A DNA stretch of 64,000 nucleotides from Nautilus pompilius. Lineage: Eukaryota > Mollusca > Cephalopoda > Nautilida > Nautilidae. Below the pieces are notes generated by a model. That model was not told the origin of the DNA, made no database searches, and saw only the letters and a list, made by a program, of their open reading frames with translations. Every line of letters begins with the position of its first letter. The first letter of the stretch is position 1. This document shows positions 6,101-49,400 of this stretch, piece by piece. Where the stretch lies: the NCBI GenBank assembly GCA_018389105.1, contig JACATO010000031.1:372001-436000 (forward strand), written 5' to 3'. The position numbers and the translations under genes were made by a program.

Positions 6101-9100
6101 GAAGTCGTTGACAGACTCCGGGCATAAAGCCTCCTCCATACCCACGCAGCATCGGTGTTCTTAATGCAATTGTATCCCTTCCAGAAGTCGCGGGAGCCAG
6201 CACCCTGCAAGTACGAGGGCAATATTTCTTGGCTATTGCACCTTGATCCATTGGCTGAAGCATCGAGGTCAGCCTATCTTTCGCTGCCTGAAACCCCGGC
6301 ATGTACGTCTCTTCTGACATTTTCCCCAGAAAAGGCCGCATTAAGTATTTGTTCAGGGGCACAATTTCCTTTGTCGATGATGTCCCGGGAAATTGTTCGG
6401 CTGCCTCACCGCGCGGGTTCGCTCGTTAGCCTTCTCTCGAGTCAGCACAGAGAAGTCTTTCCATCTTGTTCGTCGCTTCCCTTCTTTTCCCGCTGATAAT
6501 AGTTGGTTGCATAGGCCCGGAGCTGTTCGAGCGCTCCGTGATGGATGGGCCGTTGTGCTCCGACACGAGGCGTCCCGGGGAGCAGACGCAGCGGCTTTAT
6601 ATCGTAAACCTCATGACCTTGGGATTCTCTCGCAGAACAATCGCAAGGTCAGAAAACGAAAATGAACCAATCAGGATGAGAGTTTCAGTGTGTAGTGGAA
6701 CAGTCCGGCCGAAATCCGGAACGTTCCACTTTACCCGAATGTAGTGGAACAGTCCGGCCGAAACCTTCACCTGATTGGTCAGTTTCCAGTTCTCCCAAAA
6801 CGAAGGGATTTTTTGGGGAAATCTAAGGTTCTTCATCGGTAGGAGGATCTTCTTGGGTCGACCTGTAAACGAACGGTCGGCTTGATTCGTCTGTTCGCCA
6901 AAGGTCGACTGGTTCTCCAACAGGTGCTGGGATATTGAATGTTCCCAGTAGCGTCCGCGAACGTCCTGGGTTGATCGTAGTCGGTTGGCACGCCTTCTCC
7001 AAGTCTTGCTATTGATTTGTACATCGTACATGGCAGAACCTCGTCGGCGGAGTATTGTGCCCAGTTCTTCCTTGGTAGGACTTCGCCAATAGGAACAGTC
7101 GAGGACGTGCACCGTGTTTCTGGGTGAAATAGTCCTCCCTTTTGTGGTTCCTTGGGATCATCATGGCGTGTTCCGACCAAGTAGGCATTCAGCTGGAGAG
7201 GTCTGTCCTGCCGGGTTTGTATCACCTCCGCCCTTGGTCCCCTCCCCCCTGGAGCTTGAGCAGTCCGCGAACCTCTTGGACTGGGGATGGTAGGGCGGTG
7301 TTCGGACATGTTGAATTCCGTAGCGTTGACAGAATGCAGCGAAGTCGTGGGCGGTAAACTGGGTGCGATGATCTCCGGGAAACCGAAACAGCTGACGATC
7401 TCCAGTAGCTTCTGGATAGTGGCCGCCGCTGTCGTGGATTTCCGGCCACTTGCCGTATGAGTTGTCCGTCACATGGACCAGCACAGTCGATGTGTAGCTT
7501 CTGGGTAATTGGCCAGGATTGCAGTTCACTTGCTTGGATCCTTGGCAGCGAGGTTGCAGGGTAAACAAGTTCGGCAATGCTGTTCAAGTTGTGCGTCCAT
7601 ATCCGGCCAATATGCATAGCTGCACGCGATTGCTTTCATCCGGTTGATGCCTGGATGTCCACGGTGAAACTGTTGGAGGAGTTGGGTAGGTATGATGACC
7701 CGATCTCCCAACATGAGGCAATCATTGACGATGCGGTGGTATTGTTGTAGCTCACCCACCGGCCACTTGGTTCTCAGGAACTCTGCGACTTGCTGTAGGA
7801 CGTCGTCTTTGGTGGTTGCATCCCGGATCATTTCAGCCGTCACTTGTAAGGCAAGGATGGTATCCGAGAGCACACGATTGACTTCTTGTTCCGTCGTGAC
7901 TGAGGCGACGACGATATCTTGCGTGCCGATCAAGCGAGATAGGGCGTCCGCCTGACCGAACTTGTCAGTAGGCTGGTACTGGATAGAGAAATCATAGGCC
8001 GTGTAGGTTGGAATCCCCTTCTTAGACCCGAAGATGGCTAGAAGAGGTTTGTGGTCGGTCAACATTGTGAACTTGCGTCCATAGAGCATTTTGTGGAAAC
8101 GTTTGACAGCGAAGATGATGGATAATGCCTCCTCGATCTGGCTGTAATTGCGCTCGGCAGGAGATAGTGTTCGGGCTGCATGTGCGATGGCTTTTTGGGA
8201 TCCGTTGGGAAACACATGTGAGATGACGGCACCGACACCAAAGCTGGATGCGTCTGAAGCCAAGATGATTGGCAGAGTAGGGTCATAGTGCGTTAACAGC
8301 AGGTCCGACACCAACAGGCGTTTGATCTCTTGGAAGCATCGCTTGCAGTCTGAAGACCAGTTCCATTCAGCATTTTTGGTGAGCAGTTGGTTCATCGGTT
8401 TCCGCAGCCGATGGAGTGACGGCATGAAGGCACTGTAGTAGCTGACGAGTCCAAGAAAAGCTCGCAGACTTGGCAGGTCGGTAGATGCGGGCATTTCATT
8501 GATGGCTCTAACATTTTAGGGGTCTGGTCTACGTCTGTCTTTGTCCACGATGAAACCAAGGTACTTCACACTGGACATCCACAAATTGCACTTGTGGTCT
8601 TGGAGTCGGAACCCGTAACCTCCAATTCGCGATAACACCAGGTCCAATTTGCTTGTGAGGTCTTCTTGGTCACGACCCATGATAACGATATCGTCCAAAT
8701 AAGCGAATGCGTCTGGAATACCCGCCAACATCGTATCCATGAGCTTCTGGAAGATTGCGGGAGCCGTATGTAGCGGAACAGGCCTTTGTCAAAAGTTCCT
8801 TTGATTCCTTGGACACCGGAACTTGGAGATAAGCTTCTGTCAGGTCCAGTTTGGCAAAGCAAGTACCACCGTTCAGCTTGGCAAATAGGTCTTCAGGTAC
8901 TGGCAAGGGATACTGATGATCCTCGAGGGACTTGAGACCAGTTGAGAAGTCTGCGCACAGGCGGATGGTACCGTTTGACTTCTTGACAATGACGATCGGG
9001 GCCGCCCAAGCTGAGTGGTCGACGGCTGTGAGAACACCAGCGTTTACGAGGCGCTCCAGTTCCTGCTCCGCCGTGGAAAGGGCTGCATAGGGAACTGGAC

Positions 9101-12100
9101 ATTTGGGACGGAACACCGGTTGAGCGTTTGAACATAAGACCAGTGTAGCTGAGAATTTGGTGCACTGACCGAGGCCATCGGTGAATACAGGTGCATGTTT
9201 CAGGCGGAGAGCATCCATCAACTGCAAGCGTACGTGTGGAGGGACCGCTGATGATTGTTGGTCTTGAAGTTGAGTCCGGCGGCAGATGGGGCGGAGAGGT
9301 TGGGTCCAACAAATTCAGTTGCTCGATCCAGTCCAAGCCAAGCAAATCCAGATCAGGCACATTAGATAGGAAACAGGTGCCGCGAACAGTGGCATCGTTC
9401 AGGGTCACTAAGCAATTGTAGGCGTTTACCAGAGGCGCTTCTGGCGATCTCATTGGTAGGTCGAATGGGTGGTTGACCGATGAGCCGCCAAGTGCGATCC
9501 GAGATGATGGTTATGTCGGAAGCCGTGTCCAGTTGGAGTTGAACTGGTGAATTATTGATCAAGATAGACACGTATTTCCGGCGGCTTGCGAACAGGACTT
9601 GATTTGGAGTAACGACTGCATGGGAACGGGCGTCTCTGGAACGATTGAATTTGGTAGTTCGTTTGTTCTTGGCATTGGCGTTGTCATGCTCAGTGGTGCG
9701 ACAATGATCTTCTTTGTGACAGAGTTTGGAACATTTGTTGCACCTGTGGCGTTTGAAAGGGCAGAAACGAACGTAGTGCCAGTCACCACATTTCCAGCAT
9801 GCTGATGATGGTCAGGACTCCTTGGATTGGCTGTTCGATCGATTTGACTTCTGTGGGCTCTTGTTGGAGACAGCATGGACAGTGTTGGAGCGTTCGTTTT
9901 GAACCATGGCAGTATCGCGTTTGAGGTTCACGATACGTTGGCATTCGGTCGTCATATCCTGGAGTGTTATGTCTGGGCATTGCTCCATCATTGACAGGAG
10001 GCGGGTGCGGATGTCCGCGTCCTGAGGTGATCGGAGACCACAGACAAACACCAGGCACTTGAGTTGGTCGTCTGTCATTGACCAGAGCTTGGATCGTTTG
10101 CATTCCCGATTGACAGTGGCAGCGTAAGTGACCCAGTCATCTGTAGTGTGCTTCATCAGGTTGAGGCACTGATAACGGATATTAAACAATGATGACTGTT
10201 CACCGTACATGTTTGAGAGCTTGGTGACTGTCTCATTGAAGTTCAGGTCCTTGAGTTCTTTGGGCAGGATCATACTCAGGTACCGATTGGGCTCAGACGT
10301 GCCAAGTTTCCGCAATAATGTTCGAACTATCTCACCGTCATCGAATGTGGCCAAGTTCACACAGAAAACGTCTTCATATTTCTTGTGTCACGAGTCAAAA
10401 GTGACACCCACCATCGAGTCATAGTGAAATTCAGTAATAGATGCAATGACTGAATCCTTGGATGACGTAGATTGGGCAGCTGTTTGAGGAACTGACTGGA
10501 CATTGAGCTTCTTGGTAAGTGCTTCGAGCATCTTCATTTCTGACTGTTCGAATTGCTTTTGCTGTTGTAGCAGCGCCTGCATTTGTTTGAAAGACAGTGC
10601 CATTGTGAATCCCATCCTCGTCGCCAGTGTTGTGGACGCATACCTTTGTACTACAACAGCCTAATATACAATACTGCCTGTTGAGATACTCGTGACCGAC
10701 GTCAACAATTTTTGCCAGTTTTTGTCCCGGCGGAGATGAAGACTCCGGCGCGCGGATGGTCTGTTGTGCTCCAACACAAGGCATCGCAAGGAGAAAACGC
10801 AGCAGCTTTATATCATAAACCTCATGACCTTGGGATTCTCTTGCAGAACAATCGCAAGGTCAGAAAACGAAAATGAACCAATCAGGATGAGAGTTTCAGT
10901 GTGTAGTGGAACAGTCCGGCCGAAATCTTCACCTGATTGGTCAGTTTCCAGTTCTCCCAAAATGAAGGGATTTTTTGGGGAAATCTGTGGATTTCCCTAA
11001 CAGTTTTTAATATCATGCCAATGGTCAAACGATTCATATTATAGGCACGTGCTATGTTCACCATTTTTTTGCCACTTTCAAGTTTCTTTATTACCGCCAC
11101 CTTTGTTTCCATTGAGATGTCTTGCCGCTTTTCACCAACCTTGGTGGATAACGATTGCACATATAAAACTCGGAGCACAAGAGAGCGTGTCTTACCACTA
11201 CCATGAGTGCTAACGAACAAGGCCGGCTGAGAGGCAGTGGCGGCCAAAGTTTGTACAGTACTTGGCCAAATAGCCGCGCAAAACAAAATTTGGCCTTACG
11301 GATGTTTGTTCGTAAGTCGGGGAGTGTCTGTGTATACAGTCTCTTGGAGCCAAGTATTATTTCAATCAAGAGTAATGCTACAGAAAATTACCCTTCATTT
11401 TTAAAAATAGAACCAAAATGATCTGCACTGCATTATTTTTATTTTCAATTTAAATAATTTCATTTTTTTTTTAAATTTGCAATAAATATTGTCACAGAAA
11501 AAGAAAGAAGAGTTATCATAGAGAATAGTAGTTCTTAGTATCCAATGTTTTTTTAAGTCTCAGAAGAGTGAATTCTATCTTATTAAATTTTCTCAAAAAA
11601 AACAAACAAACAACCGCAGGTTTGTTCTAAAATAAATTTAAAGAGGTTCATTTACATATAGCGAGAAAGAATATTTTTTTCTTATTTAAGTAGCAAAAAT
11701 AATATATAACCAATTACACAGCTTTTTCTAAGATGTTTATTATATAAAATTCAAGGGAGATAAGCATTTCACCAAATTTTAAAATTCATCTTTGAATTAT
11801 TATTTTTGAATTGTTTTTGATAATCTGCATAAACTAAAACAAAACAATACATAGTTGAAAATTGCATAAATTTAATATTCTCAATTTTTCTACCAATCTA
11901 GTGTTATATATTATTTATTTATATATTTAGTAAACTTTACACCTTTTCAAAAACAAGGTTAAGCAAAATAAGATGGATTCCACTGCAATCAATCCAATTT
12001 TAATTTTAATGTTCTCATGTCACATGTAGTATGCAGAAAAATCTACTGTCAAATTTTCTACATACTTACAGATCTTATGCTTTACAAGAAAAATCAAACA

Positions 12101-25868: not shown

Positions 25869-28139
25869 AGTGGTCACCAAACATTTTTCACAGTGGGCCG
25901 GATAACTGAAAGAATGACGAGCGCGGGCCGCATAATCATTCTGTTCAATACTTGCAAGCCAGAACGAAAGCTCTGGGAAAAAAGGCGAAACACTAAGTTT
26001 AGCATTTCATGTTAATCATGGGTGAGTGGCGTCCAATGCACAAAAAACAAAGACAACCAACATATTTACTTACTAAAAAGTTATCAAAGAAGGCGACATT
26101 AGCAAAAATATAGTTACATCAGACCTAGTGTGCACATATCCGAATCTTACAAACTAAGCAGCAAAAAAGGTTAGTGAGATTTGTGAAACTGACGTTTGGC
26201 TTTCAAGATATCATCAATTTTTGGTTTGGAATTGCTGCATCCAATCAAGAGAATTGCTTTCAAACTGTTCATCAGTCAATCTTGTTCGATGTGTTGACTT
26301 CACATACTTCATTTTTGAAAATGTTTGCTCACAGACATAAGTTGTTCCAAACAATGATGCCATACCAGCAGCAAATTTCTTCAATTTCGGAAACTCAACA
26401 TCAGGTAAGAAGCGGTAAAATTCAACAAGTTTTCCTTCTCTGTGCTTCTCTTTCAACAAGTCATTTGCTTGCAAATCAATGAGCTCCAACTGTAGTTCAA
26501 CTGGCACATCTTCAAGGTTACAATCAAACGGATTCTGGAACAGAAGAATGTCACTCTCAATTCTGTCGAGATCTGAAAATCTCTCCAAAAAATGCTTCTT
26601 CAAGTCACGAATAATTTTTTTTAGGAAAATCGAGGTTGACATCTTCAGCAATTGTAGCGCAAAACTCTTTGAAACAGTGAAAATGAGAGAAGTTTTCTCC
26701 TTCCAGTTGTGCTTCAAACAATGACAGCTTTCTCCGAAATCCTTTGATGATTCTGTAGAGATCACAGACGAGGTTATCCTTTCCCTGAAGTTTCAAGTTC
26801 AGTTCATTCATGTGGGATGTAATGTCGACCAAAAATGACAACTTTTATCGGAGCTTGTAAAAACGAAACAGGACTTTACCGCAGCTGAGCCACCTCACTG
26901 CTGTGTGATAAGGCAAGTCACAGAAATCAGAATCAATTTCTTCAAGAAAAGCCTGGAACTGACGGTGATTGAGTGCATGTCCCTGAATGAAGTTCACAGC
27001 AGAAACGACTGGTTTCAGTACACAACAAGAAATATCCAAGTCTTTCCCACAGAGTGCTTGCTGATGTATGAACAGAGCGCCCAGGAATTTGCAAATCTTC
27101 CAACTGAGTCCTGATCTGCCCGACCAGACCCTTCCTCACTCCAGCCATGTTTTTTCCTCCATCAACTGTAACACCTCGAAGCTGATTCCACTGAAGGTTA
27201 TAGTCTTGCAAAGTTTTCTGCACTTCCATGAAAATGTCTTTTCCAGTTGTTGTTCCATGCATGCAGCAAATGGATGCCAACTCTTCCGTTATCTGAAAGT
27301 CCAAATTGACACCACGAATGAACACAAGAAGTTGTGACGTACTCGAGTGATCAGTAGACTCGTCCAGCGCCAGAGAATACCACAACAAGTTCCTAGCTTT
27401 CTCGCGTTTCTGTAGCACTATGTTCTCTCCAAGTTCTTCTGTTCTCCGCACAACTGAACTTGCCGAAAGGCTGATACTTCCAAACAAATCGGCTTTCTCA
27501 GGACACAAGTCATTTGTTGCTTCCATCATACACTCTTTGATGAAGTTGCCAGTAAACGGTTTTCCTCGCTCTGCCAACTTATGCACTATTTTGTAACTTG
27601 TACGAGTGACAGATTCATTTTCAGCAAACTTTCTCGTGAAGAGATTTCTTTGAGTTTTCTAAACCACGTTTCATGGACACATATTTCTCAGAGCGTAACT
27701 TTCCAGAAAACTTTGAATATGTTGATAGATTTTTTGTTTCATAGTGACGCCAAAGATTGTACTCTTTCAAAATGGCAACACTTTCGCTGCATACCACGCA
27801 ACTATCTTTCTGGTCCTTTGTTTCCACAAAGAAGTACTTTACTCCCCATTCTTCATTGAAAACGCGACACTCGGCGTCCATTCTTTTCTTTCTAGTACTA
27901 AATAAAGGGTGAAGAAAACAGCCTAGAGACTAGCTTGATTAACACCTTGACCGGGGAATTTTCTGAGCCTTCTTGCCCATGATGTGTCAATTATCCATGA
28001 AAAAATTTTAAAAACATTTCATTCACACACATCTCGTCGTTTCATCCTCGTTTTATCCACAAATGCAAGTACGTCAGCACGACTCAGGACTGACGGCAGG
28101 CCTGATCAGGCCCACGGGCCGTAGTTTTGGTGACCCCTG
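25869..28139 (-). mobile_element. hAT transposon relic (GTF2IRD2/ZBED-like transposase)
   Basis: The ends are inverted: AGTGGTCACCAAA on the left, and the right end reads CAGGGGTCACCAAA on the minus strand. The flanks ATCTACTC (25861-25868) and ATCTACAC (28140-28147) match at 7 of 8 bases, the 8-bp duplication expected of hAT. The transposase lies on the minus strand, 27881 to 26214: a BED-like zinc-finger start (CVVCSESVAIL), then the hAT core, then the C-terminal dimerisation block (FGTTYVCEQTFSKMKYVKS). It is spread over at least four frames or pieces (27881-27621, 27586-26942, 27039-26845, 26841-26605, 26765-26214), so it is inactive. Confidence 0.88.
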
Positions 28140-31649: not shown

Positions 31650-32921
31650 AACGGTTTTCAGATTTGAAATCAGCATGCAAAATACAGCAAATGGTGCTCC
31701 CTCCATGATTGGTGAGACAAATAACTTCATCAGATATCTGAAGAGGCACCTAGAACCGGATCTTGCAGCACAACTAAAAGATTACCACTGCATAATTCAC
31801 CAGGAGGCATTGTGCAGAAAACATTTAAATTCCAAAGATATAATGGCCTTTGTTATGTCTACTGTTAATTTTATCCGTGCAAGATCACTAAATCACATAG
31901 AATTCCAGACTTTTCTGAAGGACATCAGTGCAGCTTATGGGGACGTTCTCCATCACACAGAAGTGAGGCAGCTAAGTTGTGGTAACGTTTTGAAACAATT
32001 TTTTGCTCTGCAAAATGAAATCAAGCTGTTTTTACAGTAGAGAGGAAAGGACACTGACTGGATTGCTGATTCTGCCTTTTTGACAGACCTCACTGGACAC
32101 TTGAATGATCTCAACCTGAAACTGCAGGGGAGAGAGAAACTGATTTGCGACTTGTTTGAGACAGTCTGTGCATTTGAAATGAAACTGAAACCTTTTGCAA
32201 CTCAGTTAAAGAAAGGGAATCTGACACACTTTCCAGCATGCCAAGACGCCTTTTCGCACAAGCATTACAACTGGGGCCAACACAGCTGTGTGCTTGAAGA
32301 CCTGCAGCAGACATTCACCATCAGATTTAGGCAGTTCAGGAATGAACAGGCTGCGTTCAGTCTACTTGCAGATCCATTGTGTGTGGATGCTGAAAGTGTA
32401 CCTGGTGACATACAGCTAGAAGTAATTGAACTCCAGTGCTCCACAGTGATGAAGAATAAGCACAGGGAGATGCCACTCCTACAATTCTATCAGGGCCTGG
32501 ACCGACATCTGTTTCCCAATATCACTGCAACTGCACAGAAATGGATCTCAGTGTTTGGAAGCACTTACATATGTGAACAAGTGTTTTCCTCAATGAAGAT
32601 GACCAAGTCTCCCCTGCAAACAAGACCAACAGATGATAACCTGCAGGCAGCGGTCAGAGTTGCAACCACCTTATTGGGGCCCAACATTAACCAGTTGGTG
32701 TCAGAGAAGCACTGCAATGTCTCCCACTGACCACGACCTTTTTTTTTTTTGTAACTGACATCCATGTAAGTAGAATAATTCTATATAACAGATTGATCTT
32801 GGTAAATCTATAGAAAAATTTCATGTTATAGGGTATAGAGATGGATGCTGAACTTTTGTGGCCCACTGATGGACGTGTCACGTGGAAGTGGCCCGCATTG
32901 AAAAGAGGTTGTGCACCCCTG
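31650..32921 (+). mobile_element. Second hAT transposon relic, 5' truncated
   Basis: Plus-strand frame 31675-32730 is a GTF2IRD2/ZBED-like hAT transposase from the NGAPSMIGETN block to the C-terminal dimerisation block (FGSTYICEQVFSSMKMTKS). A single in-frame TAG at 32038-32040 interrupts it. The right inverted end is GTGCACCCCTG, ending at 32921. The left end and BED finger are missing; the unnamed repeat relic abuts there. It differs clearly from the first hAT copy, so it is another subfamily. Confidence 0.82.
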
Positions 32922-34337: not shown

Positions 34338-34401
34338 ATGGTGAAATGGTGTGGAGTACTGGCTGAGGCTGTGATGGCTGCTGGGATCCTGCTGTCTCTC
34401 G
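34338..34401 (+). CDS. Shisa/CX-like exon 1 (signal peptide)
   Basis: 64 coding nt, residues 1-21 plus 1 nt, donor TCG|gtgagt. The ATG stands in AGCAAGATGG, a good initiation context and a partial YY1-type word. The exon's 3' part is the parent sequence of the intron 1 minisatellite. Confidence 0.8.
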
Positions 34402-37400
34402 GTGAGTGGTGGTGTGGAGTACAGGGTTAGGGTTAGGGGACCTCGGTGAGTGGTGGTGTGGAGTACAGGGCTGGTCGGGGGGTCCTACTATCTCTCGGTG
34501 AGTGGTGGTGTGGAGTACAGGGTTAGGGTTAGGTGACCCTGCTATCTCTCGGTGAGTGGTGGTGTGGAGTACTGGTCGGGGGTCCTGCTATCTCTCGGTG
34601 AGTGGTGGTGTGGAGTACTGGGCTGGTCGGGGGACCCTGCTATCTCTCGGTGAGTGGTGGTGTGGAGTACTGGTCGGGGGTCCTGCTATCTCTCGGTGAG
34701 TGGTGGTGTGGAGTACTGGGCTGGTCGGGGGTCCTGCTATCTCTCGGTGAGTGGTGGTGTGGAGTACTGGGCTGGTCGGGGAATCCCTGCTATCTCTCGG
34801 TGAGTGGTGGTGTGGAGTACTGGGTGGTCGGGGGACCCTGCTATCTCTCGGTGAGTGGTTTGTGTGGAGTACTGGTCGGGGGTCCTGCTATCTCTCGGTG
34901 AGTGGTGGTGTGGAGTACAGGACTGGTCGGGGGACCCTGCTATCTCTCGGTGAGTGGTGGTGTGGAGTACTGGTCGGGGGTCCTGCTATCTCTCGGTGAG
35001 TGGTGGTGTGGAGTACTGGGCTGGTCGGGGGACCCTGCTATCTCTCGGTGAGTGGTGGTGTGGAGTACTGGTCGGGGGTCCTGCTATCTCTCGGTGAGTG
35101 GTGGTGTGGAGTACTGGGCTGGTTGGGGGACCCTGCTATCTCTCGGTGAGTGGTGGTGTGGAGTACTGGTCGGGGGTCCTGCTATCTCTCGGTGAGTGGT
35201 GGTGTGGAGTACTGGTCGGGGGACCCTGCTATCTCTCGGTGAGTGGTGGTGTGGAGTACTGGTCGGGGGGGACCCTGCTATCTCTCGGTGAGTGGTGGTC
35301 TGGAGTACTGGTCGGGGGACCCTGCTATCTCTCGGTGAGTGGTGGTGTGGAGTACTGGTCGGGGGGACCCTGCTATCTCTCGGTGAGTGGTGGTGTGGAG
35401 TACTGGTCGGGGGACCCTGCTATCTCTCGGTGAGTGGTGGTGTGGAGTACTGGTCGGGGGGACCCTGCTATCTCTCGGTGAGTGGTGGTGTAGAGTACTG
35501 GTCGGGGACCCTGCTATCTCTCGGTGAGTGGTGGTGTGGAGTACTGGTCGGGGGTCCTGCTATCTCTCGGTGAGTAGTGTTGCACCTGCCCCTGTAGCTA
35601 GAAGCTGCGCTGCATATGGCGACTATTATCATCTGTTTAATATGTAACAAATATACTCGTGGAAATGGGTAGTTTATTTATGTTTTATAGTTCACATTTT
35701 GTAGTCACAGTGATCGGACTTTCAATAGGACTGAACTGAAATACTGGGGAGGAAACAGCTTGACTATAAATAATGTTGGGATAAACCAAGAATTAGGTGT
35801 ACCATTGATGCTAATAATCCTTTTTGACAAGATAATTCGATTAGAATCATTCCATGTTATATTTTCTGTGATATTTATCGCACACAGACACAGTTCTTCT
35901 ATTCATGAAATTGGTAATAAGTTATTTTCATAGACTCGTTTTTATTTAAAATGACAAATTGTTGTTTATTATTTTATGCACAACTTTAATATTTAATTTT
36001 GTGAAAAATCAATTTTATTCAAATTTTGTGCTCTTGGTAATAAAATTTAATTATGAAAGCCAAAATAAATTTTTTAAAATATATTATTGGGTTATTTTGC
36101 ATTCACTCTCTTCTAGAGAATTTTATATTGTATTTGCCTTGGTAAATTGTTTTAGGTGCCACAGTTTTAACAAGCAGAACAGTGGATTGGGGAGGACAGG
36201 AAAAGAAAATAGAATTTATTTTTAGATGATATTGTTAAGATTATCGTAATAGTACAACAACACAACAATAATTAATGTTATTTAGTGTATTGACACCAGA
36301 AAGTTAAAGAGCTGTCCTACAAATAGCAGCTACTTTCTTGTTGCTTAAGTAAGACTGAAATCCCCATCAGAATCCAGATCACTATAATATCCAGAACACA
36401 CCCAGATTATAATCATATATCATTGCATCTCACCAAAGTTTAAAAATATCCTAACTAATATAAGCTTGCCATTTTATAAAGATCTGATGGACAATAACGG
36501 GCAGGGGACACTATAGCAGTACTATACTAATTATCACAATAACCGTTATACCTACCTGGCTCAGTATAAATCCATTGTTTTGACTCATTCCATCCAGAAT
36601 TAATTGTGGTATGCCTTCTAGGCTATACAAAATCAGCTACATATTAGATCTCCAGTATTTTGCACCATATACCATAAGCATTCTATAGATTGGGAAATTG
36701 GAGTGGGTGAAGATGCATTTGTGGTGGACTTTGACAGACTGGAGCCAGATTCTTTTATCTAATAAAAGCAAATTCAGCCTTCACTTTGGCTGTTTACATG
36801 TTTGGTGGAAACCAAATGAACATTATGCTGATTGTAATATGCCAGAGAGATGATTTCTATAGGGCCGTTGTTCTAGTCTGGGATGTTGTATCAGATGATT
36901 ACAAAAGTAAACTGATTCTCTTTGATAGGACTGATTTGTAATAGTTCTGTCTGTAAAGTCTTGATAATCCATTTATCTTCATAGATGATAATGCAAAGGC
37001 CAACAAGAATAGGCCACCTTTATGAGAAAAATATCCAACTTAAATCCCACAGAACTTCTAAAATGATCTATTTAGACATATTGGATTGTAATCATATGTT
37101 CCTCAGATCATTCATTCTGAAACTGCATGAAGCCTTGACAGAAGAGTGGAACACATTGTCATAAAGCTGCCAGATATCTTGATCAGTATGAGATGCATGT
37201 GCAATGCTGTAGTGCAAGGTGTTCATACATGTTACTGAAGGTTATACAATCTCAGACTGTGTAGAATGTGATTCTTATTGGGATATTGTAGTATAGTGTA
37301 CATATTTAGTGAAGATATAAAATTTTCACTCAATTTCAAAAATGACTATATACAAAGTTTAAAATATTTCATTTTGCAGAATATCTGGATTGATTTATAA

Positions 37401-40400
37401 ATAAGACTCTGATGTTATCATATATGGTATATTTGTAGCCTCATGGAATCAAAATAAAAAGATTTAGGCATTTTCTTATTGTTTTATTATTTTTAAATGC
37501 ATTTATTTGTTTTTCCCCTCAGATTGTGAACTCTCTGAGAGCAGCCATTCATCAAGCAGAGGGAGTAGAATTTCAAGGTCTCGCTCATCAACACGGATCA
37601 CTCGAAAGAAATATGGCTCAGTAATTAGCTCAACACGTTCCAGGATCTCAAAATTAGGCTGGAAGAAGTCACTACTGATTGGTGGCATTCTCTACGTTGG
37701 TTCAAGTTATTATTTGTCACGAAGTAATTACCGTCGCTATCCAAACCGAAGTAAGTTGTTCCATCTTTTACATTACTACAGACATGTACCGATTTACTTT
37801 TGCCAAGTTATGTTAATATTTTGCACTGATCTGTGACACTTGTTTATACTGAGAACTAAGGAACAAGCAAAATTTAATTACATATGCTGTAGTGTATATT
37901 TGCTATACTAGTGAGGAATGTTTACTGCTACTGTTATGTGTAAACTTTATTTGTTTGAGTAATGAGCTAGATGTCTGATTTAAAGTAGAATAACATTCTT
38001 TTATATTTACTGTATGTTACTGAAATTGTTATCAAATTTATCTTAGTTTCCTTTGTAGAATGTTTACTAATAATGTTATGTTGTTGGCCTGCGCCATTTA
38101 TTCAGATCAAAGAAGACAAAGAGACACACAATAATTAGGGAAGGTTTTTCTAATTTTCATGATTTTATTTTTCAAGGACCAACCATATGTTCCAATTATG
38201 CAAAGTCAGACAATAATGGCACAGTGTATGGGATGTTCATCTGTCCAATGAGATATAACCCAGATGACTTCACCCAGTGTTGTGGTAATGAAGGTGAACA
38301 AAGATGTTGTCGATATTTTGATGGGTAAGTCAAAATATTTAATAAGAATTTTCCTGTTACTTTTTTAAAAGATAATGATTGTAATACATCTATAGTACTC
38401 AAGATGGTCTCTGTGCAGCTTTTAAAAGCAGACCTTGTGTTTTTGTAAAATTTGCATTGTATATAAATCTGTTTGCTCCAAACCAACACAATCATTTCTC
38501 TTGATGTGGGTGTAGATGTCAGGGTCGTGTCAGACAGCTTTGTTGTACACTTAGAAATCGCAGCACATTTTGAAGTTACATAAAACAGGATTTATGACAT
38601 TTGGTTTACACAAGTTTAGGGAAAGGGTATGATGCCGTGCTTACTGCATTTAAAAATGAATTATGAAATCCAATATTTGCAATATTTATCTAAGTATATT
38701 TATGAAGAAATTTTCTTAAAATGATTGAACACAAATTTTTAGAAAGTTATTTCTCTTTTTCTTATCATCGCAGCCACTACAGACTAGACTGACTTTTATC
38801 TTTAGTTTACCTAACCATGTACCTTTCATTTTTGTGTGCAGTACTTTTAAGATCTTTCATATGCACACTGTGAAACAAGTTGATCTCTGCACATAATTGC
38901 TTTCTTTCTTTCTAGCACAACAAATGTGGTTGGGATTGTTATTGGTTCTGTGGTTGCATGTGTGGTCCTTGCTGTGATAGTCTACTGCCTATGCAGAAGA
39001 AAGCAGCGGCATGCTGGCCATGTTATAGAAAAAGGTTTGTTTGGTATATTATTGTTGTTGTTAACATCTTATCAGAGAGAGCATTTTTAAAGATTTTGTT
39101 TGGATGGGGTGCAAATCATTAACGTTACAGCATCTGTTAAGATAAAGTACATATATTTTACAAGCAAACCTAAAAAAATAATTCAACTTTTTAGCTATCA
39201 GAATTCTGTATAGAAGTATCTCCAAACACTAATTTATATGCCCAAAAACTAACCAACCACATACACACAATGATAAATAATGTGACCACATCACTCAAAT
39301 GTTGTACTACTATTAGCTTTCAAATACATTCAAGGTGCTTCTGATGGACTCCTCAGATATGTGCTTCTTTAAGTGTTCTTCAGACACTAAAGCAACAAAA
39401 CTTATCACAGATTTAAAAAAACAAACTATCACTATCCGTCCCAAAATTTATAGATCTAAGATATTCATATGTTTGTTTCATTTATTTTCAAAATACCAAT
39501 GTTAAAATGCACATGAAAATACATTTTGCAGTGATAATCAGTGAATCAAATAAAATGAACACTGGAAAATTATGCATTTTAGTTTAATAAATAAAAAAAT
39601 CACGTTAGAGCAATTAGTTCTTTGACATATCTGGTTGCTGAAATGTGTTTACACACCTGTAAAGTGTATGTCACCTGATATCCTTACATGTAACACACAA
39701 TATTAAAAGATGTGTGTATATTTCTAATTTCATCAGCTAATTTAGGACTTTACACCCATGTGATGTAAAATGGTACTTATATTCTTTGAAAATCAAGAAA
39801 AGGATACAGGCTACATTTACAACTGGTCCACCAGTCAAAATTCACAATACAACAGCTGTGCATATTAAACTGCTGATACAAAAACAATTCATTTTATTTG
39901 TGTTTGGTAAAAACTTTGGTTCAGAGATCTTTGTCTAATTATTTCAAACTTAACAGCTTAAATAAAATTGTGTTATGCTAAAACGAGTTACATTCAGTAA
40001 TAAAGCTACATGCCAGGTGTTCATTTTAAAAATGAAGAGCTTGACAAGTCAAAATTCTGAAATTTAGTGGAAGAAAAGTTTTAAAAATCCTGGAGAAATG
40101 GCAATTTGTACTAAGAACTTTAATGATAAATATTCTGTAGTTTAGTGTTTTATATTATTTTACAAAAACTGGAGAGTGACAATTAAATTTGCTATAAAAT
40201 TTTTGTGGTGCTTTTTATGAATAGTATTTTGTCTAGTGCTTGCTATTGACTTATTTCTTATTGCTTTATTTCTATGTTTACTTATAGTGCAAACATTAAA
40301 AGTTAAAATTTTAGTACTTTTGATTTTTATTTATTCAATTAAGTATGATCATGGGTAAAAAAAACAAAAAATCTACAAACCAAACAAACAAATACACGGT

Positions 40401-43400
40401 ATTACTGAATTAGCTGTAGTGAGCTCACTTTTCACACAATTTGCTAAATGGGATGGGAAAAAATGTTTTCAATTGAGTAGATTGTCTGATCCTTAGGCAC
40501 ATTTGACATCATCTCAGGTTCATTACATTGACTTGTCTTAGTTTGGTCAAATGATATCTCAAGCTGTTGGACCTTACATGAAAGACAGACAGTAACTCTT
40601 TATTGATTGAGAAAAATGATCAGTGGTAAGTCGGCTATTGATTATGATGGCCATGTGGGACTTCAGAAGAATAATTAACAGATTAAATACAGATCAATGC
40701 AACTTGTTCATTGTTTCATAACAAAGTTCTACAATCCACATCTGATTTGACAGCAATCAAGCACCTTTCACACCTTCAGCTGATGACAAACGATCAAAAA
40801 AAACACGTTACTCTGGCACAAATAAGACAAATGAACAACACAAAAAATATATTTTATTTGTTTTTCAAACTTTATTAAACAATTGCTTAATCATAACATA
40901 GATGTTTCTGAGCTCATACTCGTCCATACTTACTGATATGTTCTATACTGGGGATTCAGACATCTATCTAAGACCTGACCCGACTTTGGCCAAAAAGAAA
41001 TGACCATTTGACATACTTTTGAAAAATAACTTTTAATGCTAAAATCTCCAACTAGCTTATGTAGGGTGACCCATTTCCTAACTACATGTTATGATGTAGG
41101 CTGCATTGAACTAGAACCATAAAAAATAAAGATAACTGAAAATGTTGAAGACTTATATAATGTTACTTTAACTAAAATATTACTATATTTTTTAATTTCT
41201 TCAAACATTTTGTTTGCTGTGAAATGCATTGATATTTTCATTAAAGCTTTTTTTTTTAGATGATAACGTTTTCTAATTCACTATCTCAATTGTTAAAATT
41301 TGCCAGAATTTATGAGAGATAAAAATGTCAAATTAAATATAATTTTTATTTGCTGTCATATGCAGCTTGGGTTTTCTCTATGACTGTTAGACAAGCACAC
41401 ATACCTGTCTTCTGAAAGAATTGTGAAAACTGATTTGTGATACAAAACGAAAAGTTGTTTTTATTTGCTTGATTCATTTATTTTATCTTTCATGTATAAA
41501 TAATTTTCTTGAAATAGTCTCTTCAAAAGACAACTGAATGATGCTTGGGCTTCAAAATTTTGTTTTAGTTTTATGTGTTTTTTTGCTTCTTCATTTGCAT
41601 GTTTACGTCTTCATTTGCATGTTTACGTCTTATTTGCATGTTTACGTCTTCATTTGCATGTTTACGTCTTCATTTGCATGTTTGCTTCATCATAGATTTG
41701 CAGGATTATTCGAAAGTTACTTGTCCTTTACAAAGTGTCCCAGGTAAGCCTACATTTAATTAATTGTACTAACTTAAACAAATACTTTAGTTACACTTCT
41801 GCACATTAGCTGATAAAACAAAAATGTTTATGGCGGAGCCTTTCTGGTTCTTGGCTTCATTCTTCTGGGTTTGTAACCACCACCTGTTTATGTTTTTAAT
41901 GTTATGCTAATTTTTTATTTTGGAAATTAAGAAGGAAAAAAAAAAAAAAACAGAACCAGCAATGTATACAAACTACACTTAAAATTGATAAAAAATTAAT
42001 TTTCTCTGTCTCTCTCATATGCATACATACATATATATATTGTGTGTTATTTCTCCCAGCCAATGGAAAGTTATTTACTATGAATTCATTTACCCAAAGT
42101 TGGTGTCCACATTTCCATCTGGGAAAACCTGTATATTAAAAACTTTGAATTTTGCTTGGTAGGAAGTGTTAAATCTTTGTTTGTCCTACAAGTACAGTCA
42201 TGTAGCTAAATGGTAATTTAGTGTTTTCTTTAAATAAAAAGAGACATGAAAAAACAACAACATTGTTTTGTTTTAGAAGGCAGGTGTTGCATCATTAATT
42301 AGACTGGATAGAACAACTAGTACACAACTGATAAGTTCATTTCTGAAGGACTTTTGTAGTTAGTACAAGTCCCAAAACTCTCTTAATTTTGTTTAGGAGT
42401 ATGAAAAACAGGTTGTTTTTTTTTGTTGTGGGGTGGGTTTCTAAATACTAAACATTAGTGCCAAACACTGGATACAATTTACTTTCAAAACTCTGGCAAG
42501 AAAAAATTTGATGGTATAAAGCTACTTCATGTTTAATTTCTTAAATCCCATGATGTATAGAGATTTCCCAATGGCGGTTATGATTTCAAGTGAATTTTGA
42601 CAAGTTAAACTAATTTTAAAGCACTAAAGGTTTCATGTTTGATTTATTTTGGACTACAGCAAATATGGTGATATTTCAAGGTCTTTTTTGTTTAAATAAA
42701 ATGGGGCTGATTAAATAGTTTAACTAATAAAAATAAAAGCATTCCTTTTAACACTTTTAATGTGTGCAAAGCCATCTGATGAGGGGGATGGATGATATCA
42801 GCAGCATGGCATTGTGTATAGTGCTCTCTCTACTTAATCATGTGCATTTGTATACTATTAAAAATTACTGAGGATCAAGGGATACAACATTGATATAAAG
42901 TTGTTTGGTACCATAATGAAAGAGAATTTAGAATGTTTATAAACTACTTTAAGAAATCATTATTATTGGAAAATTGGAAAATGACAGATATTGTCAAATG
43001 ATGTCAAAACTTGTCAATAGAAACACAACAAAAAAGACTTTTAATTATTAAGAAAAGATGAAAAATCTGGAAGTTTTATTCCATTTTGGCAAATTCCTGT
43101 TCAGAAATCCATTTAGTATTTTGAGAGTCTCCAGCATGAATGATATTTTAGCTCTAACATCTCATGATGATGAGTCTTTGAATGTTGACCTGGGCCAGAT
43201 CGTTCCATTTCTTTGAGAATTTCAGCAAGTTCCTGCAAGATTTGTGGTAGCACAGGTGATTTTTCACTTGTAGTTTGAAGCATTTCCTATACAACTAGTG
43301 AGAGACCCTATAGTGTTTATGTTCAGCAATTTTAGCATATTGAAACCTCTCTCTCTCGTCCTCCCCCCTCTGACATGCTGGTCTCAGACAAAATGTTGAC

Positions 43401-46400
43401 TCTGAAAAGTACAAGGGTCCAGTTTCTCATGGTCTATACGCAAGTCTTGCCATGCCTTGTGGTGGCCCATGGTTTGTGCTATGCAGATAAGGTTTTTCTT
43501 GCTTCCATGCCATTAGCCTAGAATTGATAACATACAGTTTGTGTTGAGACATTGACATTTGTTGCATTTTTAAGGTCAGATTTCAGCAGAGTTGTCAAGA
43601 AATGGTTTCTTCTCTCTTGCATGACCAAAAAAGTGATTCTGGTGATACATTATTGATTTGGATTGGCACTCATCATGTTGTCTAGCAGTGATGCTGAGTC
43701 CAGGCTTTAGAAATGATTTTCTGGCTCTCAAAGTCCATCTGCCACATGATGTTGAGTTGCTCCAATCTCCAGGATATCAATTCTTCTGTCAAATGTTATC
43801 TTTGTCACCATTGCACAACTCTTTATCAACCAGCACTAATAAAAAAAAAATTACTAATTTGGTGATAAAGCACTTCTTAAATAGCAAAATGATGGCATGC
43901 AACACATTGACATTTATGTGAAGATCATGTATTTTAAATGTTGACACAATGGAGAAACTTCCTCTCACTGTGGGTGAGGTTTCAAAGAGGAGATAAGGGA
44001 GTGAACTGTACTAGGATTTGGTTTGATATTCATAGTTGGCCGATAATCCTTTAATCTTTAGTAAATTTTGAGTAGTGTATAATACGAATTTCTAGAAAAG
44101 CATAATCTAGTTTAACTTTATATTGGCAACCACTTTGTGAACCTTTGCTTGTTACACAAGTAGTGAAATTTTGTGTTTGTATTACAGCAGAACAGCCTCC
44201 GATACCAATGACAGGCAAGATGGATCCAGCCCAACCAGCAGCTGCTGCATATGTGCCGCCACCAGGACCAACCTGTCCATTACAGCCTCAGTTTTATCCC
44301 CAAGAGTCCGGAGCCAGTAAGTTACCACTGTTCAGTAGAGATGCTAGTAATTATTGAATTCAAAGTTGCATTATTTTTTCAGAGCTAGTTAATACTCTCA
44401 ACTTCCTCGTTTTTTTGTAGCTTATATAAACCTCATTTGACAACCTTTTATTTATAAATTCTGTTTTTTTTAAGAAGCTAATTAATTGAAATTTGAACTC
44501 TCTTGAAATGAAGAACTAGTGATGATGAAATGCCATTCCATACTTTTGCTTCTGTGTAGTAAACAAATATTGGCTTTGCTTGCATTTAATTAACCCTTTA
44601 CATACCATATCAGTTTTTACTTATTATACATACATGATATATTTACATTCCAGCCTAAAAACACTAGTATTTATGTTGAACTGATTATATATTTAGTCAA
44701 CACAGATTTATAATGATAGGAAAGTACTGTGTCATAGGGCCCTATGGCTCAACCTGTTCTGAATCTTACAGATTTGTAGGGTAGTGGTTTGCCCAGGTGA
44801 TATATAGAGGGTTAATGGATTTTATTTATATTATTTCTTTGCTCTATTCTTACAGTAACAATGACTAATTTCAGTTCTTATTTTGAGGAGATAAATTCTA
44901 TTAGCTAATTGACAAGTGAATCTTTTTCATCAATTTTTAATTTATTTTATTGTATTTGAAGAAATTTTTTTTAATGTTTAGCAATGATGGAATGGAACAT
45001 AAGAATTATTGCACAGTATTTATTAGTTTAAAAGAATTCTTTAGTTATTAAGGTTAGTGGATTATTTATTCCAAAGATTAAGATTTTTTTTGGTTCGTTT
45101 CTAAAGAACTAGATGGCGAGTTTCTTAGACTCTTTGCCACACCACTTTGCTACTGTAACTTTCCACTCTTACCTTTAAAAACAATTTGAAAATTTGCTCC
45201 TTTTTTTTTGTTTTTGCTGTCACTTGCTGACAAGAAGCAGATGAAATATAAAATTAGCCACAATATAAAAGCCAAGAATACATAAATCACCGAGTATATT
45301 CATGACTTGTGACTTTAAAAATTGTTATTTTGTGTTTTTTTTCCTTTTAATGTGAAGTGGAATTGTGGTTACCTTGGAATACACCAAAATATCAAGGGAA
45401 CAGTTGAGTCATTGATTCACCTAAGTAGCTGAGATTAATATGCAGTATTGAAAATAACTTTGGAAACACACACAGTATGTGCACAAGTAGTAATCAGTAA
45501 TTACAACAAGAGATGTATAAAGTACATACACAACACATTATTACAGAAATTATGCCAAAGTAAAATGAATATGTAAAGTGCATTGGTATTTAATATGTGA
45601 GCCCTTTGATTTATATTGAGCATGACATCTTTTCATGCTCCCTTGCAGGTTATCAATGTATGACTGTGGAATGTTCTAAATGTCCAGTATCACTTTACAC
45701 AGTTTATCCAGTGTGTTTTGTTGTTTCACTTTCTCAGTAGCCATGTAATTCCACTTTTATAGTGTTCATATCGTGACTTTTTGCAATCCAAGACATCTTT
45801 ATGAATGTACTATCAGCCTCTTTTCACCACATTGGCTTTATGCTGGAGTCATTAAATTTTGAGAGATGAATCTCTGCCCAATGAGATATCTTTCTGATGG
45901 AATGGCATGAGAAATTGCCTGTACTTGTTAGCAGTCAGTATAATTTCATTTTTATGCCAATCTTTAATTTTAATGCCCCCATGCTTCACTGTGACTGTTG
46001 TATGCTAACTGTTATACCAGTCTCCAATCTGCTTTCAAATAAACTGCCATTGAATTATTGGCAGACAGTTTAAGCATGGACTAATCTGTAAAGAGCACCT
46101 TTTAGATTTGGTCATCCCATCGTTTCAATTTTTATATCTATCTCCGCTTTGCTGTTTGGTTGCCTCTCCTTAGCAAAGGTATTCAAAGAACTAGACATCC
46201 TTTCGTGTTAATGTGTGTCTTGCTTTTCTTGAAGAAATGCTAACACCGGTACTTGAAACTAGATCATTTGTAAGATCTGTCATGTAGAACAAACTCCGAA
46301 GTACTTAAAATCAGTTTTGGAGAGTTCTGATCTTTTTTCCTTATGCTGGCCAGGCCTGGCTTAATTTATTTTAGTGATGTATGGTACGCAATATGGGAAA

Positions 46401-49400
46401 TCAAGAACTTTTTAACATCACCTTCAAATCTCTTGTTTTCATTTATGGCAGCATTGGATCATACTCTAAAAAAATTGTGTAAACAAATATACTTCTCTGT
46501 TGGACTTTCTTCAACAACCTTATTAGCTCCAAGATACTGCTTTTATCCCCATGCAAATACCCTGTATCTAAATCTTATGGCTCCAACAAAAGTATTTTGA
46601 TCTTGATTCGGTTTTGTGCTAGCGCGCGTGTTGTAGACTGACTGGCTCTGACTAAATTGCAGGTGTATTTATGTCTACGAACTGGAAGAAGGTTTGAACA
46701 ATTTTAAAGCCGTGAGAAATCACAGGCACACGGATTAGCATCAGCTAATATTAAATTTTATAAAAAAAACTGTACAGCTCCAGAATCAGCATCAGGAACA
46801 ATTATGTGCATGAAGAACACTTCTGAAAATTGTCAATACTTTACTTTGTGGGGCATGGCAAGACATCCCAATTAAAGGAGAAGAATTTCAATGTTGAGTT
46901 CCACGTCACTGGTATCTGTTTGCCTCTTTACCAATTTTAATTGTCTTGAAAAGTTTTGTATCACCTTAGTGATAAGTCTTGGGAAATTGTGAATCAGACA
47001 AATTGTGCACTTTCTAAGGTAATTTAAATGCTCTTTCCTTTCCAAGGAAGCATAAAACTCCAAGAACAAACAGCATTGTATGAGCTTCTCACAAAACTAG
47101 TCATAAATCCAGCTACTAAGAGAATACAATCTGATATTATACCTCAAGCTTTCCCCATCTTTGGAAGTAGTACTTGACTGCATTAGGCAGAATTTTTCTA
47201 GAAAAAATGTTGATGAATACAGGCTTTGTTTTAAAAAATTAAACCCAGAAGTTTTTTTTGCATGTACCCACAAACCAAAAACTTTTACAGCTGAAAGATC
47301 TTTCAGCGAGCTATGATGAATCAAAAGCCTGGCTTTGAAGTACAACATCACAAGAGATTAAACGATCTCGTGGTTTGCTGGTTGCTGAAATTAATCCACA
47401 GTAAATTACACAAGATATAAGACAAACACCACAATCTTTGGTGTGTTTTAGTAAAGAAAGTCTAGTAATGATATAGCACTTAATTTTATTTTTCATATAA
47501 CATATCTATAAACTTATGATTGAAAAAATAAAATAAGATATAAATACATCCTATAATTTAAATTCTGGTGTTGCTATTTTATAAGCCATATTCTCTTTTT
47601 TGCTTTACAAAATATTTTTTTATAATAAGAAATTACTAAAAGCCACTAAATTTGCCTTGCAAGATAAAAATTGAACAATTCAATGCAAAATTTTGCTTTG
47701 ATGTTGCAAATTTTATGTATAACTGCTTTTAATTGTATATCATCAATCAATAAATCGTCTTAATTTTCCTTCTTTTTTTTTTGTTTCATATAATTTCTGG
47801 AAGATTACATTTTTTATGTTTTACAGAAAAATCAGACTGGTTACTGAGATCCTAGATCCCACACTGAGAAATTGTGGCAAACATATATATTCAGTACCTG
47901 TATACACTATGTACAGGTTACTTCAAAATCCAATGGGACCAAAAAGTCTCAGCAGTATTGTACTAAATTTTGCTTTGTTTTTTTTTTTTAATAAAGAGCA
48001 TGACAAATATTTAGTTTATCCTATCAGAACAAACTAGCCAGGGCAGAGCACTTTACTGAAAAACAGAATTGAATGTGATAATGAAATAAAGCAGACATCT
48101 TGAAAACATGTATGGTCGGGACATTTAGTGAATCTGCCTGCTTTCATGTTTTGTTAAAATTGGTAATATAAATTTCTTGGGTCTGCTATTTAACAATAAT
48201 ATAAGTTTCACCAATTGTGGTGATGAAAACGTTCTTGAAAAGTGTACCTGTAGAATCTTTCTTGATTTTACAGTTTACCCGCCTGTGTATCCGGGCTATG
48301 TTTCCAATTCTTGTGATTCTACAGCTCCACCACCTCTACAGCCATATCCAGGTATTGTGTAACAGCTTGTTTATTAATCACCCAATATTTCACATTGGCT
48401 TTTATTTACTTATTTGGTAACAGATGTTATTGTAAATTACATCTGCATGATGTGAACATTTTAGTTAGTTATGTTACTTGAAGGTTTATCAATTCTCAGT
48501 TACTATATCCACTTAAGTAAATAATTCAGGGAGCATTCTTAATGGAAGTTGTTGTTATACAGTGATGATTTGACATAAGTAAATAGGCTTATCTGCGTGT
48601 CAGGGAATACCATTCTAGTCATATGATAAGTACATCAATGCAAGTTATAAGACCAGATACAGATCAGAAGAAACCACAGATGGTAGACAACCATACTACT
48701 GATGGACTTTGAAAGTGGATGCATAGTTGGGCAATGAAACATTGGTAGAAGTTAGTGGGTAGTCTGTAAGGTACTGGATATTTTGTTGTTAGCTGTTAAC
48801 AAGGTGATTGTCCAGATTAAGAGAAGCCATAAGATAGCCATTCATATGTGCCACCTGGATGCTCAAAGCCAACAGAATGGAAATCTTGTGTTGTGGAGAG
48901 AAGCATGGAAAATGAACTTTATAACTGGCTGCAAATATGGAGAGCATATGTAAGTATTCACAATGAATATCAAGTATTCTCTCCACATTGTAGGGGACAA
49001 TGGAATAGTGGTGAGATGCAAAATATGCTGCTACCACATCCACCTGCATACAGGAATTTTTCACTGAACCAGCTAAAGCCACAGCAAAATATAGCAGTCT
49101 GTCTGTCATGGTGTTGAGTGGGATTTGTGCCACTGGACAGTCACAGCTGTCAATATGGTCCAGTCATCACAAAGGTGGAAAGACAGTTAGGATATCACAA
49201 CTCTACCACGAACTCCTTTGAGCATATGTGGAGTATCTTGGACTGATCCATGCAATAGTGTCCTTATAACCAACTTTCTGGGACTCCCTATGGGCTACAT
49301 TCTCACAGACCAAGATTTCTGATTTTATGAGCACAATATGTTAGCATATTGCAGTTTTGCAACAGAATAAATGGGTGATTTTTCAAGCTTTGGTATCTGT

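Follow-up and report, generated by a model that had tools for sequence, protein, structure and literature searches.

A minisatellite repeating the presumed exon 1/intron 1 junction of a predicted gene in Nautilus pompilius

In a 64-kb window of the Nautilus pompilius genome (assembly GCA_018389105.1, contig JACATO010000031.1, positions 372,001 to 436,000), the first intron of a predicted gene begins with a minisatellite in which the presumed 5' splice site of exon 1 is followed by 24 further donor-like sites. The array is probably a neutral, junction-copying minisatellite, and it looks like a long and clear further example of the repeats that have been named mirages in lancelets. We consider it likely that the main mRNA is made from the first donor (donor 1) and that the 24 copies behind it are mostly bypassed. 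What the sequence shows directly is that the junction recurs, in how many copies, how the array is divided into blocks, and which reading frames the predicted splice products have.

The hexamer GTGAGT occurs 26 times on the forward strand of the window, and 25 of these sites stand in line, with first bases between 34402 and 35570; chance expectation from base composition is about 0.2 in 1180 bp. The reverse strand has four such hexamers in the window and none inside the array. Coordinates and count given by a first-pass annotation, which had described a donor as the first of 25 copies in line, all on the sense strand, therefore hold. Successive sites are spaced by 44, 52, 54, 46, 52, 46, 51, 53, 51, 47 and 52 bp from donor 1 to donor 12 and by 46, 52, 46, 52, 46, 47, 49, 47, 48, 47, 48, 46 and 46 bp from donor 12 to donor 25. 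The resulting 24 intervals, here called units, comprise 16 distinct sequences. Tandem Repeats Finder (TRF) split the array into three rows, which overlap and jointly cover 34398–35579; their periods are 44, 46 and 98, the last of which scored best.

Alignment of the 24 units with the exon revealed a common sequence consisting of TGGTGTGGAGTACTGG and CCTGCT(A/G)TCTCTCG followed by GTGAGTGG. A few changes are specific to single units, and most of the second element is missing from unit 1. The unit matches the 3' part of the exon plus the donor and, provided that the predicted exon 1 is correct, spans the exon–intron boundary as in mirages and as had been proposed beforehand. The exon version of the unit (62 bases) exceeds the 52- and 46-bp units by 10–16 bases, the extra bases lying in the middle. 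Its local alignment scores were 43.5 with the 46-bp unit and 49.5 with the 52-bp unit, against maxima of 35 and 30, respectively, in 2000 single-base shuffles each, which substantiates the earlier idea of a degenerate unit inside the signal-peptide codons.

The interior of the array appears to evolve in concert. Units 1, 2 and 3 show the lowest mean identities to the other units (Table 1), those of the remaining 21 being 0.87–0.92. Among units 4–16 mean identity is 0.95 at lag 2 versus 0.87 at lag 1, corresponding to a dimer of about 98 bp, and the alternation is broken at units 7–9, where three long units follow one another. Spacer variation is mostly one of length and concerns a G run and a GGGCT-like insert. 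Units arranged in blocks, together with odd units at the 5' edge, fit unequal exchange and ordinary minisatellite turnover and recall the turnover reported for lancelet mirages (PMC3087553). The spacers of units 1 and 3 (34424–34437 and 34520–34533) hold GGGTTAGGGTTAGG, which resembles two vertebrate-type telomere repeats.

Taking these data together, we propose that a tandem duplication reaching from the 3' part of exon 1 into the start of intron 1 placed extra donors inside the intron. Around the start codon, the sequence GGTGAAATGG (from 34340) is similar to GGTGAGTGG (from 34401), and slippage between the GGTGA word at the start codon and that at the donor, 61 bp apart, would thus offer a simple origin of this duplication. 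Unequal exchange and conversion may then have expanded and homogenised the repeat into a G-rich minisatellite. Donor 1 would serve the main mRNA, and the 24 intronic copies would mostly be skipped or yield little mRNA, ending after 30 residues.

The host gene model is inferred from open frames, splice phases and domain likeness (Table 1). Exon 1 (34338–34401) translates into MVKWCGVLAEAVMAAGILLSL plus one extra base, and joining of the predicted exons 1–3 (34402 to 37523 and 37751 to 38177) gives 146 amino acids without a stop and with GT–AG intron ends. Phase and frame fit donor 1 as the presumed authentic junction at the edge of the array. The first-pass annotation had called it the real donor, a statement that frame and phase support to the extent of a presumed donor. 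The curated Shisa_N cut-off was reached neither by the exon 3 frame nor by the joined exons 1–3 (14.7 bits), and the expected transmembrane exon was not found between 38325 and 44188, where only one GTAAGT site was inspected. The CpG observed/expected (o/e) ratio reaches 0.90 in the kilobase upstream of exon 1, drops to 0.50 within the array and is 0.21 for 36001–44000; over all 34 kb upstream it averages 0.51. A CpG-rich stretch within a CpG-poor genome is promoter-like. Across 33339–64000 the ratio declines, down to 0.25 in the part of the window downstream of the array. A second, short tandem array lies at 41588–41683, in one of the later introns of this predicted gene, and comprises 4.8 copies of the 20-bp unit TCTTCATTTGCATGTTTACG at 97% matches; this unit contains ATTTGCAT, which we take to be octamer-like.

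Table 1. Features of the array and of the predicted host gene (positions in the 64-kb window)
Feature	Position	Strand	Basis
Predicted exon 1, coding part, 21 codons + 1 base, signal-peptide-like N-terminus	34338..34401	+	Open frame, donor phase 1
Longer repeat unit within the exon (presumably source or oldest copy)	34340..34401	+	Unit/exon alignments
5' splice site of intron 1, presumed to be the authentic one	34402..34407	+	Sole donor of 25 leading into exons 2 and 3 without a stop
Minisatellite with 25 donor-like GTGAGT sites spaced 44–54 bp apart (24 intervals)	34402..35575	+	GTGAGT positions, TRF, unit alignment
Three 5'-edge units, two with TTAGGG-like spacer, most divergent	34402..34551	+	Mean identities 0.67, 0.86, 0.83
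Middle block, units 4–16, 46–47-bp and 51–53-bp, mostly alternating	34552..35191	+	Lengths, lag identity
3' block, units 17–22, 47–49 bp	35192..35477	+	Unit lengths
Last donor copy, then non-repeated intron sequence	35570..35575	+	GTGAGT positions
Predicted exon 2	37523..37750	+	CAG acceptor and GTAAGT donor, both ends in phase 1
Predicted exon 3, rich in cysteine, weak likeness to Shisa_N	38177..38324	+	PF13908, E 0.0098, 16.4 bits, cut-off 22 bits
Predicted later exon, proline-rich tail	44188..44316	+	Acceptor/donor by eye; GTAAGT at 44317
Predicted later exon, proline-rich tail with PPVY motif	48274..48351	+	By eye; phase suits preceding predicted exon

GTGAGT is unchanged in all 25 copies, but constancy is not confined to it. 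The hexamer is flanked in the units by TCTCG and GGTGGTGTGG; CTCG precedes it in 25 of 25 copies, and GG follows it in 24 units (AG in the last copy). The earlier statement that the core is kept while the spacer varies is thus right with regard to the invariant core and to spacer length, and it does not set the core apart from its neighbours. By eye, some 6–8 distinct events were counted in the 38 alignable, constant columns (24 left, 14 right; length-variable spacer left out), and with so many events an empty core of six columns has a P of about 0.25–0.36. This rough estimate assumes uniform, independent events and has low power; it neither demonstrates nor excludes constraint. Selection on GTGAGT is therefore unsupported, and the comparison that the first-pass annotation had suggested as a check, conservation of GTGAGT versus the spacer, yields no significant excess. 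We infer that the hexamer may well be free of selection, and from sequence alone a function of the array is likewise unsupported.

Splicing of the later donors to exon 2 would in all 24 cases lead to a stop after 30 residues, as would unspliced read-through, in line with the earlier remark that a TAG in the first unit ends the protein prematurely when later donors are used. Predicted pairing with U1 amounts to −10.5 kcal/mol for donor 1 and −11.0 kcal/mol for the last donor, versus −5.6 and −10.3 kcal/mol for the donors of exons 2 and 3. With respect to predicted openness donor 1 ranks 3, 3 and 1 among the 25 sites in three window sizes, a weak hint that it may be slightly favoured, given that all values are low and differ little. 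Acceptor-like AGs within the units end in GAG, have 75% pyrimidine upstream and look weak. A rod-like RNA structure hiding the copies was considered too. The fold of 34550–35000, a part of the array, has a z-score of −5.09, none of 100 dinucleotide shuffles being as stable. When dinucleotide-shuffled units repeated identically served as control (200 each), tandem consensus units gave z-scores of −1.53 (46-bp; 10 of 200 as stable), −0.55 (52-bp; 52 of 200) and −1.64 (98-bp; 13 of 200). The stability is hence largely a by-product of repetition, and the rod was rejected as a clearly special structure. The sense strand of the array is G-rich. A regular expression detected no canonical four-run G-quadruplex motif in the array; its maximal G4Hunter score is 1.6, and windows scoring at least 1.2 make up 9% of the array versus 0.09% of the rest of the window.

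Some observations weigh against a neutral array with silent copies. The 3'-most unit, with a mean identity of 0.91, is not divergent, which departs from a pattern of divergence at both edges. The absence of any change in 25 GTGAGT hexamers is compatible with constraint. In splicing work on duplicated donors, the intron-proximal one was often the one used. Downstream units of human IFI6 are said to act as donors, which makes the silence of the present copies uncertain. If they were active, the copies might form an array of poison donors that compete for U1 and the acceptor; depending on copy number, some of the transcripts would be spliced from later donors, run into the stop after 30 residues and be degraded, so that repeat number sets expression. 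This model, which we regard as rather unlikely, can draw on the IFI6 precedent, on intact cores in all donors, on the U1 pairing predicted for the first and last donors relative to those of exons 2 and 3, and on the identical early stop behind every later donor. It has to contend with the fact that extra conservation of the core is not demonstrable, that lancelet mirages reportedly leave splicing undisturbed, and that predicted openness, with its low values and small differences, slightly favours donor 1. Still less probable is a heritable rheostat in which 24 equal poison donors stand in a row of variable length behind the signal-peptide exon, each added copy diverting a share of splicing to the early stop, and repeat number thereby sets protein dose. 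If copy number did change splicing, a minisatellite would be tied directly to gene dose. Further effects that the first-pass annotation had thought conceivable are a buffering of splicing and an exon 1 length that differs between alleles.

It is very improbable that exon 1 is mispredicted and the gene begins at another place, in which case the array would be a plain neutral minisatellite and its GTGAGT words would not derive from a working donor. The subthreshold Shisa_N match, the shortness of exon 1 and the predicted status of the gene model would allow for this, whereas the phase-consistent open frame across three predicted exons with GT–AG ends, the hydrophobic N-terminus and the promoter-like kilobase upstream argue against it. 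The least credible of the alternatives is an array that holds U1 and in this way prevents early polyadenylation or, from within the first intron, enhances transcription. U1-complementary sites do stand in a row near the presumed promoter, and intron 1 contains four AATAAA hexamers, all downstream of the array; however, this number was judged (not computed) to be unremarkable for an A+T-rich intron of 3121 bp, and conservation lends no support. A neutral minisatellite with splicing mainly from donor 1 remains our preferred interpretation.

Elsewhere in the window, remains of a retroelement were found on the reverse strand (7526–9314) in separate frames. Matches to RNase H-like and integrase zinc-binding sequences exceed the cut-off (7526–8515), and a match to reverse transcriptase (8670–9314) is weak and falls short of it. 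Transposase-like remnants are present at 32041–32730 on the forward strand (Dimer_Tnp_hAT, above the cut-off) and at 26942–27658 on the reverse strand (DUF4371, below the cut-off). No Rfam family reached its gathering threshold in the window, and ARAGORN predicted no tRNA there. The exact 27-base core of the array had no match in the collections viral_contigs and genome_contigs, which hold viral and prokaryote DNA and are thus little informative.

While the first-pass annotation had known of no described case just like this array, junctions or donors are also repeated in lancelet mirages (PMC3087553, PMC3902484) and in human IFI6 (PMC4526556). In lancelets, the name mirages was given to tandem repeats that extend across exon–intron boundaries of globin and Adh3 genes; these repeats are unstable, cluster boundaries escape homogenisation, and many units keep AG/GT signals (PMC3087553). 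The data presented there suggest that regular splicing is undisturbed, and cryptic use is called possible. Troponin C (TnC) and PGBD5 were added later as mirage genes (PMC3902484). The Nautilus array shares with the mirages of Adh3, the globins BflGb6 and BflGb9, TnC and PGBD5 a homogenised interior from which boundaries are excluded. It differs by its 24 further donor copies, which all share the same intact core, at the end of a signal-peptide-like exon. BflGb6 repeats the acceptor side, in contrast to the donor side repeated here. CpG and G+C are low in the host of the present array, unlike in lancelets. The minisatellite unit of IFI6 (6-16, G1P3) reportedly measures 12 bp and is thus shorter than the present one. 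Two downstream repeat units of IFI6 are described, with reference to Turri et al. 1995, to act as donors and give rise to three mRNAs (PMC4526556), whereas the array studied here has intervals of 44–54 bp and a stop soon after donor 1. New splice sites can arise when boundary sequence is duplicated (PMC4974935, PMC2812944); such intron gain or modification is alike in duplicating a splice boundary, which in our case is a prediction. Excerpts on other intronic minisatellites (PMC3045353, PMC12783039) have no bearing on splice-junction repeats. With 25 near-identical donors at a single exon, the array offers a natural test bed for donor choice by the spliceosome; by analogy, either outcome could be envisaged, with the undisturbed splicing of mirages and the use of repeat donors in IFI6 as the respective precedents.
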